A DNA stretch of 33,864 bases, taken from assembly GCA_003153435.1 (NCBI GenBank), contig PLYR01000148.1:1-33864 (forward strand), in the 5' to 3' direction. Positions 19,958-23,919 of this stretch are shown one piece after another. This DNA comes from Bacteroidota bacterium (GTDB lineage: Bacteria; Bacteroidota; Bacteroidia; Palsa-965). Every line of letters starts with the position of its first letter. The first letter of the stretch is position 1. Made by a program: the position numbers and the translations under genes. The notes below the pieces were generated by a model. The model had not been told where the DNA came from and searched no databases. It saw nothing but the letters and a program-made list of their open reading frames with translations.

Positions 19958-21268
19958 TCATTCTTTGAAGAGCCATTCTTCGGGGTTCAGTTTATTTTGC
20001 CCTTTCCAAATCTGGAGGTTCATCTCGGTCTTCCCTTCATCCGCATCGAACTGTATTTTGCCAATGTTCTGTTTAGCCTTCACTTTATCACCTGTCTGGA
20101 CATACACTTCATCCAGGTTTGAATATACACTCAGGTATTCTCCGTGCCGGATAATGACCAGTTTACCTACTCCAGGAATGCTCGTTACTCCCGTTACTTC
20201 ACCCTGAAAAATACACCTGGCCAATGAACCCTTACCTGTACTTATGGTGATTCCGTTATTAAAAGTGTGGATATTGCTTATAGTTGGATGAGGGTGCTCC
20301 CCGAAGCTTTCAGTAATCATTCCTTGAATGACGGGCATTGGTAATTTTCCTTTATTACTTGAAAAATTGAGGTTCACATCCATTTCATCTTTAGAGAGGT
20401 GGTATTTAGGAGAAGCCTTGACAACGGTTTTGTTCTTATTTTCAGAAGGGGCTTCTGACCTGCTTGCTTTTTCTGCTGCTTCCGCTGCAAGTTTCTGCTG
20501 ACGTTCAATTTCTGCCTTGATCAAGGCCTGAATTGCAAGCTCCGTTTTTTCGGCATCTCTTTTCTTTTTTTCGAGGTCTTTTTTAAGCTGGACTTCTTTT
20601 TGCTGAAGGTCTGATAGGAGTTCTTCTTTTTCTGTTTTTTTGGCGGTTAGGTCCTTCTTCTCTACTTCCTGATTTCCCAGAAGGTCTTTCTTTTCACTTT
20701 TTTTCTGTTCAAGATCCTGCACTTGTTGACCCAATTCATGCTGCTTGTTGGATATACTCAGGATTTGTTTTTTTCTGGCTTCATTATATTCTTGTATATA
20801 TTTCAACCGTTTATAGGCCTGATTGAAATCAGAAGCTGCAAATACAAACATCATCTTATCATAATTATCCCTGTTTTTATAGGCAAAGTAGACCATCCTT
20901 GCATATTCCTTTTTTAGCTTTCCGATATCACCATGGAGGGCCTGGATTGTGTTGTTGTTTTCATCTATCTGGTGGCTCATCAGGCCTATTTCGGAGTTGA
21001 TGGTGGAAATGTACTCTTCTCTTTTTTCAATATTCTTGTTAAGGGCAACCAGGGTGTTAAGCGTTTTGGTTTTGCCCTGTTTGGTTTCTTTGAGTAGTTG
21101 TTCGGCAAGCTCAATATCTTTCTTTTGTTTTTTCTTTTTAAGCTCCAGGGCTTTTTTATCTTGCTTTTGGGCAGGAGAAGGTAGGCTCAGAAAAAAGATG
21201 AGCAGGAGTATTCCAGAAACTATCCGCAAAAGGTTAGTGTGGCCTTTCGGGTTCTTTGACTGTTCCAT
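19958..21268 (-). CDS. EnvC-like murein hydrolase activator with degenerate LytM (M23) domain
   Basis: 436 aa. Signal helix at about 13-33 (ends SLPSPAQ), a long charged coiled coil (about 35-270), then a LytM/M23 domain (about 312-436). The fold is clear ([48 protein letters not shown]) but every metal ligand is gone. The HxGxD place reads NNGIT (337-341), the A-H place reads SNLD (383-386), and the HLHFE place reads MNLQIW (416-421). In E. coli, EnvC has the same coiled-coil plus inactive LytM plan and activates amidases at the septum under FtsEX control. The start overlaps the DUF4292 stop by 35 bp. FtsEX and amidases are not in the window. Confidence 0.9.
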
Positions 21269-22154
21269 TGGGTTCCTTCATATAAATTCGTTTGTAGCCT
21301 TCGGGAATGTAAAAAGGGAATTCGAGTGGATGGTTCAATTTGATTTTGCGATAGCTCATATTGAGGAGCAGGTTTCGCTCAGCTTTGATCTGGAACATAG
21401 CGGTATTTGCAATCATCATCCCATTGGATGCAGGATTGAAGTCAGAATAGCTGGCATCAAAACTACGACGGGTATTGAAATCATTGAAGAGCAAGCGGGC
21501 TATTTTGTGACTGACAGGGTTTACCCAGATTGTTTGAGCTGAATCAGTCTTGGTGAGCTCACGGTTTCTATTCACCACCCTTTTGAGTTTCCGTTTGCGA
21601 ATTGTACTTAGCACACATTTTCCATTTTCAGAATATGAATGAAGTTTTTCATTCTCTTCATAAAACGTTGCGCTATTACCGATTAGTATACTTTGAACCA
21701 TGTCAAAATCAAAGTCGGCGAGAAGCATATGATTGATATAGCTGAAGTCACCTTTGAAATACGATCCTTTCTTGTCGGAATCCTTGGGGATATAATCGAT
21801 AAAAAACACAGAATCAACGGTAATTAGAATACGGGCTACTTTGTACAAACCTCCTAGGGCGGTAACATCCATCCATATGGCGCTATCACGGCGAATCCGG
21901 AGTGTCACTTCAAAATTTTCTTTTACGCTATCTCCTTTTGCCTCACAATCGAGTTTGGAAGAAAGCGTCTCGAAATGAAACTGGTGTGTTTTCATACTGT
22001 CAAGCAGGCTTTGGGTATTTCTGCAATCCCCTGCAAGAAACACTTCGGCCCGTATCACATTTGCTTTTTGTCCGGCCTTACCGCTTTTACAGGACGACAT
22101 GAGGAGGTATGTCGCTAAGCAACAGAGCAGGAGCAAATTACCCGTCCTATTCAT
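21234..22154 (-). CDS. DUF4292 lipoprotein (LolB-like candidate)
   Basis: 306 aa with a lipoprotein signal: hydrophobic residues 7-20 and a Cys at position 22 (LMSSC). The body fits DUF4292, a family seen mainly in Bacteroidota: FEVTLRIRRDSAIWMDVTAL, then ARILITVDSVFFIDYIPKD, YFKGDFSYINHML and the DFDFDMVQSILIGN segment. The order (strand with W, helix, long beta sheet, helix after F/Y-x-G-D) resembles the half-barrel of LolA/LolB, which carries lipoproteins to the outer membrane. I recall the family being grouped with that fold, but cannot verify it here. ATG 22154 is chosen as the start right before the signal. It overlaps the TPR gene stop by 8 bp. Confidence 0.82.
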   Translation of the reverse strand: MNRTGNLLLLCCLATYLLMSSCKSGKAGQKANVIRAEVFLAGDCRNTQSLLDSMKTHQFHFETLSSKLDCEAKGDSVKENFEVTLRIRRDSAIWMDVTALGGLYKVARILITVDSVFFIDYIPKDSDKKGSYFKGDFSYINHMLLADFDFDMVQSILIGNSATFYEENEKLHSYSENGKCVLSTIRKRKLKRVVNRNRELTKTDSAQTIWVNPVSHKIARLLFNDFNTRRSFDASYSDFNPASNGMMIANTAMFQIKAERNLLLNMSYRKIKLNHPLEFPFYIPEGYKRIYMKEPNGTVKEPERPH

Positions 22155-23919
22155 ATAAATTCCTGTCAGCAATCTTTTTTTCCAGTAGTTCAGAGCCGCC
22201 GCCCTTGAGTTTGGCTTTCATCCAGTATGCAAATGCTTCGTCTTTCCTGTTCAGTTTAAAAAGAATATCTCCATAATGCTCCAGCATGACTGCACTTGGG
22301 TCTGAGTTGGATGCAAAGACTTTATCCATCCATTCCAGGGCCTGAGGATATTTTCCTGTCTTGTAAAGCACCCAGGCATATGTGTCCTGGAAATTGGCAT
22401 TTTTCGGATCCAATTCATTGGCTCTCTTTGACATTTTTTCGGCTTTATCCAGGTTTTCATTTCTGAGGCTGAGATAATAACTAAAGTTATTGAGGACATA
22501 AGAATTATCAGGATCGAGCTCCAGCGCCTTGTCATATTCGAGGTCAGACTTCTTATTCTCCTTTGTTTTATAATACGCATCACCAAGTGTGGAATGAAAC
22601 TGTCCTTCCAGAGGTTTATTATCTAGCACATAAATGAGTCCGCTGTTCAGAGCATCAATGCCATCTGGATATTTTTTTTCCTGAATGAGTGCGAGGCCAT
22701 TGAATAGATAGGGCAGGGGCATGCTGGGAAAGAGTTCGATAGCTTCTTTGCTGTCAATAGACATATCACTGTAGTCATTGAGTTCAGAATCAACAATTAG
22801 AAGTTGATTCCAGAGAACGTACTTACTCTTGTCTGCATCAATAGCTAAGCGGTATTCCTTTCTTGCTTCAGGAAGTCTTTTGTCACGATATAGGAAATCT
22901 GCATAGACGGCATGGCCTTTCGTTTCCTGGGGATGAAGTTTCGTAACGATGTAACAGAGGGTCTCACACGCTGATTTGAGCTTGATGTCTGATGCGGATT
23001 CATAATAATACCGGAGTAAAACCTTTATCTTGCTCTCTACATCCAGATCAGGATTTTCGAGAGCCTGTTTGTATTTGATAAAAGCGCTATCGGCCTGTCC
23101 TTTGTTTTCATAGTACTCTGCAAGATTGAGTTGGGCAAATGAATTGTATGGATCGTTTTTCAGAAGTTCAAAAAACACCTCGTGAACCTTCTCTTCGGCT
23201 TCTGCTTGTTTTATTTTGTTTCCTTTTTCTTTGGCGACATTGGCCCTATCCTGAAACAATTGAGCGAGTGCAGCATAGTATTTAGTCTCCAATGGGTTTT
23301 GCCGGATCAGTTTCCGGATCTCCTCTTCTGCTTTTGCTGTTTCTCCCACACGGTCCATAACTTTTGCTTTCTGAAGAATAACCTCATCTGAAGGTCCCAT
23401 TTTCTGTTCAATCTCCTCATACACCTTGATAGCTTCTTTGTATTTTCCTTCATATAGCAGGGCATCAGAATATCCATAATAGTACTCCAATTTCAGAGGA
23501 GAAATTTTGATGAGCTTAGTGAACTCTGAAGCAGCTTCCGCTGGATTATGTGTTTCCTGCAGGATCTGGGCATAAATAAGATGGTACCATTCATTCTGAG
23601 GGTCACCAGAAGCAGCAGCTTTCGCGTGCCCTAAGGCAAGATCATTCCTTTCTTGCTGATTGTAAATGCATGCCAGTTCATAATGTGCAGCAGCATTATT
23701 AGGATCAATATGCAAGCATTCATTGAAGCCATTAACAGCTACCTCCAGGTTTCCTTTTATCTTTTCCCTACAGGCATCCATAAATTTGCGGGTGAGGTCT
23801 GGGTTGGGATTTTCCTTGGCTGTTGGTGTGGAGGACTTAACACTCTTCTGCGCCGGCTTGCAGGATACCAGTATCCAAGCAGAAAAAAGAAACCAGGATG
23901 TTATCCGCAGAAATTTCAT
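22147..23919 (-). CDS. TPR-repeat lipoprotein
   Basis: 590 aa. Signal peptide with lipobox LVSC and Cys20 (ILVSCKPAQ), so probably lipid-anchored. From about residue 40 to the end it is almost all tetratricopeptide repeats, roughly ten or more: AAAHYELACIYNQQERNDLA, YYYGYSDALLYEGKYKEAI, FAQLNLAEYYENKGQADSAF, QFHSTLGDAYYKTKENKKSD, FQDTYAWVLYKTGKYPQALE. TPR lipoproteins are scaffolds for protein complexes; no catalytic domain is seen. It lies between the nucleotidyltransferase (37 bp) and DUF4292 (8-bp overlap), which suggests a partner role in the same envelope process (inference). Confidence 0.88.
   Translation of the reverse strand: MKFLRITSWFLFSAWILVSCKPAQKSVKSSTPTAKENPNPDLTRKFMDACREKIKGNLEVAVNGFNECLHIDPNNAAAHYELACIYNQQERNDLALGHAKAAASGDPQNEWYHLIYAQILQETHNPAEAASEFTKLIKISPLKLEYYYGYSDALLYEGKYKEAIKVYEEIEQKMGPSDEVILQKAKVMDRVGETAKAEEEIRKLIRQNPLETKYYAALAQLFQDRANVAKEKGNKIKQAEAEEKVHEVFFELLKNDPYNSFAQLNLAEYYENKGQADSAFIKYKQALENPDLDVESKIKVLLRYYYESASDIKLKSACETLCYIVTKLHPQETKGHAVYADFLYRDKRLPEARKEYRLAIDADKSKYVLWNQLLIVDSELNDYSDMSIDSKEAIELFPSMPLPYLFNGLALIQEKKYPDGIDALNSGLIYVLDNKPLEGQFHSTLGDAYYKTKENKKSDLEYDKALELDPDNSYVLNNFSYYLSLRNENLDKAEKMSKRANELDPKNANFQDTYAWVLYKTGKYPQALEWMDKVFASNSDPSAVMLEHYGDILFKLNRKDEAFAYWMKAKLKGGGSELLEKKIADRNLYE

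Follow-up and report, generated by a model that had tools for sequence, protein, structure and literature searches.

A DUF4292 lipoprotein of a Bacteroidota bacterium as the probable LolB1 of its Lol pathway

Introduction

The locus analysed here raises the question of which protein takes over lipoproteins at the outer membrane of Bacteroidota. The window, a stretch of 33,864 nucleotides from a contig of an uncultured Bacteroidota bacterium, encodes a lipoprotein with a DUF4292 domain, and a preliminary description had proposed that this protein accepts lipoproteins from LolA and thereby fills the gap left by the lack of an obvious classical LolB. The assignment of DUF4292 as the LolB of Bacteroidota was borne out, but the gap it was meant to fill is no longer open, since this role was published in 2025–2026; the gene itself is an ordinary LolB1. 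With LolB1 identified, a step long missing from the account of outer-membrane assembly in Bacteroidota has been filled in.

Two published studies bear on the protein. De Smet et al. (2025; PMC11885536) described LolB1 and LolB2 in Flavobacterium johnsoniae, of which LolB1 works with LolA1, and homologues of LolA1 and LolB1 were present in all 30 species searched. Deletion of lolA1 or lolB1 abolished both gliding and type IX secretion, the two mutants had phenotypes in common, and lolB1 homologues cross-complemented. GldK and GldJ were reduced in the mutant outer membranes and a peptidoglycan hydrolase was down to 0.28 in that of the lolB1 mutant, but outer-membrane lipoproteins were not generally mislocalised upon deletion of lolB1, and a strain without any known LolA and LolB was viable (PMC11885536). 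A structure of LolB-PG from Porphyromonas gingivalis at 2.1 Å (coordinates 9TPM) came from Jaiman et al. (2026; PMC13103446). LolB-PG has some LolA-like features and binds LolA in the low micromolar range, while its mutant showed no fimbrial defect. E. coli LolB and its Bacteroidota counterpart have been described in print as unable to replace each other. The term DUF is used in neither PMC11885536 nor PMC13103446, and no paper was found that uses the term DUF4292.

Results

The lolB1 ORF lies on the minus strand (21234..22154), starts with an ATG at 22154 and encodes, stop codon included in these coordinates, a protein of 306 amino acids. A longer frame could start at an upstream TTG at 22172, but the ATG was preferred because it gives the better lipoprotein signal. 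From this start the N-terminus reads MNRTGNLLLLCCLATYLLMSSC22, with the lipobox LLMSSC22, and the cysteine is invariant in all 35 aligned DUF4292 homologues, in agreement with the earlier designation of the protein as a lipoprotein. Residues 1-22 (22089..22154, minus strand) thus form a lipoprotein signal peptide, judged by eye and by conservation, in which Cys22 is the predicted site of lipidation.

The protein matched Pfam PF14125 (DUF4292) with an E-value of 6.8e-34 and 117.8 bits against a cut-off of 23, a margin which shows that the match is not due to chance. It also matched the NCBIfam equivalog NF053559 (LolB1_Flavo), entitled 'lipoprotein insertase outer membrane protein LolB1', with 143.6 bits at a cut-off of 50. 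All 35 aligned DUF4292 proteins matched this model at E<=0.01; of two green sulfur rows scored once more, one had 39 bits, below the cut-off of 50. The model for the second protein type, NF053540 (LolB2_flexi), gave no match with the window protein. A match to PH_3 (E 0.13) was attributed to chance. The source genome carries one DUF4292 gene. Within the phylum, DUF4292 was present in 240 of 247 genomes, and the seven without a match belong to families f24 (five), f25 (one) and f37 (one), where divergence is likelier than loss, since the existing matches in these families are weak. Four genomes (G138, G035, G109 and G199) gave two DUF4292 matches each, which may represent duplicates of lolB1. 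A scan of genome contigs yielded as its only match a relative with 74% identity from a metagenome-assembled Bacteroidota genome, and two scans of viral contigs yielded no relatives.

When the DUF4292 family profile was searched against the PDB, it found 9TPM with an E-value of 7.4e-12 over residues 31-226 of 274. This entry, deposited as 'DUF4292 domain-containing protein', is LolB-PG (PGN0994), which by its PDB name belongs to the same Pfam family but is too distant from the window LolB1 for a direct sequence match; a direct phmmer search of the PDB with the window protein found no LolB. The family is also linked to classical LolB by sequence. The Pfam model PF03550 matched 10 of the 35 DUF4292 members (best E-value 8.9e-8), although three of these ten, viewed singly, scored 18.6-22.2 bits, below the cut-off of 23.7, and the window protein itself gave no match to PF03550 at E<=0.1. 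TIGR00548 (lolB) matched one of the 35 members at 7.8e-4. Profile comparison by hhalign, which the preliminary description had called for, gave an E-value of 3.9e-4 and a probability of 35.6 with the single E. coli LolB sequence, compared with a probability of 1.1 with E. coli LolA. LolB-PG (9TPM) has the LolA/LolB half-barrel fold. AlphaFold2, run on an input of two sequences, reached a pLDDT of 31.2 and a pTM of 0.22. Since this gave no usable model, the half-barrel fold of the window LolB1 rests on homology to the solved member 9TPM, through which the protein would be expected to adopt it. The LolA/LolB-like order of strands, noted earlier by eye, accordingly agrees with homology to 9TPM and receives no support from the AlphaFold2 model.

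The hhalign register also bears on the protruding loop of LolB. It places mature Leu68 of E. coli LolB (Leu89 of the precursor), exactly the position changed in the PDB variants 3wjv and 3wjt, in the LGI loop of the DUF4292 family. In F. johnsoniae LolB1, according to the available text, changing Leu74 led to partial loss of function, and removal of loop residues 73-76 abolished function but also lowered the amount of protein (PMC11885536). By this register and loop comparison, residues 100-106 (LGGLYKV; 21837..21857, minus strand), between predicted strands 3 and 4, are the putative counterpart of the loop in the window LolB1, and Leu100 or Leu103 is the candidate for its tip residue. A weak hint in the same direction comes from the AlphaFold2 model of pLDDT 31.2, in which two strands flank residues 99-105. 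The window protein resembles F. johnsoniae LolB1 (Fjoh_1066) in its membership of the same equivalog above the cut-off, its lipobox, its leucine-bearing loop and a LolA1 gene that is unlinked and located elsewhere in the genome. It differs in its greater length of 306 amino acids, a longer loop between strands 3 and 4 (ALGGLYK, residues 99-105), a mid-protein stretch of 26 residues compared with 11-12 in Flavobacterium-like rows, and a longer C-terminal tail.

The loop is not universal, as it is missing from 8 of the 25 loci of family f5 (L002, L003, L004, L005, L013, L014, L015 and L022), a family which probably corresponds to Flavobacteriaceae. The loop stretch comprises 14-15 residues in these eight loci, 16-17 in the other f5 loci and 19 in the window. 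Three of the loop-less proteins were tested against the LolB1 model and scored 261-297 bits, and all eight loci retain the operon of a TPR gene, lolB1 and an M23 gene. It is this loop, naturally missing from the eight proteins, to which a crucial role has been ascribed in F. johnsoniae and E. coli.

Two LolA and two LolB proteins are encoded in the source genome. NF053572 identified LolA1 (129.5 bits, cut-off 100) on contig C47 (L065 1069-1749), where its gene adjoins ftsK. LolA2 (219.8 bits, cut-off 125) is followed by LolB2 (NF053540, 83.4 bits, cut-off 60) on contig C39; the two form a flexirubin-type pair (L064 1375-2680) near genes for a polysaccharide deacetylase and a FabA-like protein. 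LolB2 is likewise a LolB-like lipoprotein of this genome, but it is a separate gene on another contig and adjoins LolA2; identity of the window protein with LolB2 was rejected, as the NF053540 match is this separate gene. A search for GldK in the source genome revealed scattered GldK-like pieces below the cut-off.

The preliminary description had also placed the gene in an operon of envelope genes, and the neighbourhood bears out this envelope setting. Upstream of lolB1, and overlapping it by 8 bases, lies a gene for a TPR lipoprotein of 590 amino acids with the lipobox LVSC (22147..23919, minus strand). Downstream, with an overlap of 35 bases, the same strand encodes an EnvC-like protein with a coiled coil and a degenerate M23/LytM domain (19958..21268), beyond which follow TatA and a GatA-like amidase. 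This setting differs from that of E. coli lolB, which is located between ispE and hemA. When the loci were queried with the window proteins, the arrangement TPR – lolB1 – M23, all on the same strand, was found in 50 of 55 scored loci (L002-L024, L026, L027, L034-L063). In the first set all 25 scored loci showed it, the remaining 5 of 30 being unscorable because the window LolB1 had no match there at E 1e-3; in the second set it was found in 25 of 30 loci, including that of the window. The five deviating loci were L052, L056, L060, L061 and L063, of which L061 fails only on the distance rule, because of an overlap between its TPR frame and a long open frame. In all 53 aligned copies of the M23 partner, histidine was missing from both columns that we take to be the active-site positions of M23 peptidases. 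With both histidines missing, the partner is more like the amidase activator EnvC than like an enzyme. EnvC, TPR, M23 and division are unmentioned in the available text of De Smet et al. (PMC11885536), and no literature was found on EnvC together with LolB in Flavobacterium.

Families f18 and f16 were recognised as green sulfur bacteria by the FMO antenna protein PF02327, which was present in five of five tested genomes and in none of six other genomes. By a count made by eye, DUF4292 occurs in all 54 f18 and both f16 genomes, and none of these is among the 153 genomes positive for LolA by PF03548. In 15 of the 56 genomes, further LolA searches gave no match with PF16584, one chance-level match each with TIGR00547 (0.07) and NF053572 (0.05), and no match with a four-row LolA profile that recognised three of three controls; PF17131 matched in 5 of the 15, but these are a different kind of protein. 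Either LolA of green sulfur bacteria is too divergent to be seen, or DUF4292 uses another donor there. Two of their DUF4292 loci have sod and methyltransferase genes as neighbours, with neither TPR nor M23. Green sulfur loci encoding the DUF4292 lipoprotein were L025, L028, L029, L030 and L031.

Discussion

The window protein is very probably the LolB1 of the source bacterium, with which the Lol pathway ends at the outer membrane and which takes over lipoproteins from LolA1. By analogy with the published relatives, from which fold, LolA binding, insertion and clients are deduced, the acyl chains of lipoproteins would pass from the periplasmic carrier LolA1, encoded apart from lolB1 beside ftsK, into the open half-barrel of LolB1, and the protruding hydrophobic loop of LolB1 would place the lipoproteins into the outer membrane. 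The clients may be a subset of lipoproteins, as are GldK and GldJ in F. johnsoniae. The proposal that DUF4292 fills the LolB gap therefore holds for a subset and not demonstrably for all lipoproteins, since the published mutants were affected partially (PMC11885536) or, with respect to fimbriae, not at all (PMC13103446). These partial or absent defects count against the LolB1 assignment, as do the lack of a match at E<=0.1 between the window protein and the classical LolB model, the lack of any LolB among the hits of the direct PDB sequence search, the unusable two-sequence AlphaFold2 model, the GldK-like pieces below the cut-off, which do not clearly establish GldK clients in the source genome, the loop-less proteins in 8 of 25 f5 loci, and the green sulfur bacteria that have DUF4292 without a recognisable LolA.

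A protein with the LolB fold might instead act mainly with its TPR lipoprotein and EnvC-like neighbours in the control of peptidoglycan amidases, much as GerS activates CwlD in Clostridioides difficile. The conserved gene order in 50 of 55 loci and the M23 domains lacking both histidines in 53 of 53 copies would fit such a role. The family profile, in addition, weakly matched 7rag_A, annotated 'Lipoprotein', with an E-value of 4.5e-5, an entry which we take to be GerS. In the available parts of the respective texts, GerS resembles LolA/LolB in the fold of a lipoprotein (PMC8496864), and the decrease of a peptidoglycan hydrolase to 0.28 in the lolB1 mutant (PMC11885536) points the same way. GerS, however, activates a spore amidase and has no known part in lipoprotein transfer, whereas lolB1 shares mutant phenotypes with lolA1 and is cross-complemented by its homologues (PMC11885536), and LolB-PG binds LolA (PMC13103446). 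Gene linkage by itself is moreover no proof of joint action, and the gene order is missing from two green sulfur loci, so that amidase control as the main function appears very unlikely. That the protein shuttles some other lipid cargo, such as a pigment or glycolipid, a role put forward for the LolB2 of the flexirubin locus, is scarcely probable: LolB2-type proteins do exist, and the source genome has one with LolA2 at another locus, but it is the LolB1 model and not the LolB2 model that recognises the window protein, none of its neighbours is a pigment gene, and the published lolB1 phenotypes concern lipoproteins (PMC11885536). Despite the fold superfamily common to both and the LolA-like features of LolB-PG (PMC13103446), a LolA-type carrier in place of a membrane receptor is extremely unlikely, given the lipobox cysteine invariant in 35 of 35 homologues, the lack of a match between the window protein and any LolA model, and the separate genes for LolA1 and LolA2; this identity was rejected on account of the lipobox and the separate LolA genes.

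Beyond its identification as LolB1, the protein could be part of a fixed module of TPR lipoprotein, LolB1 and non-catalytic EnvC-like LytM protein which couples the insertion of lipoproteins to the cutting of peptidoglycan at sites of growth or division, in a family that is able to work without canonical LolA and without the loop, as in green sulfur bacteria and some Flavobacteriaceae-like species; we regard this wider proposal as speculative and rather unlikely. The TPR – lolB1 – EnvC-like linkage, the loop-less LolB1 and the green sulfur DUF4292 without a recognisable LolA were not found in the literature covered, and through each of them the mode of action of LolB1, and the question whether its donor is always LolA, can be tested directly. 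The position of lolA beside ftsK in the source genome recurs in genome G047 (L032 1462-2082) and in E. coli (L068 1873-2484), an arrangement common across phyla.
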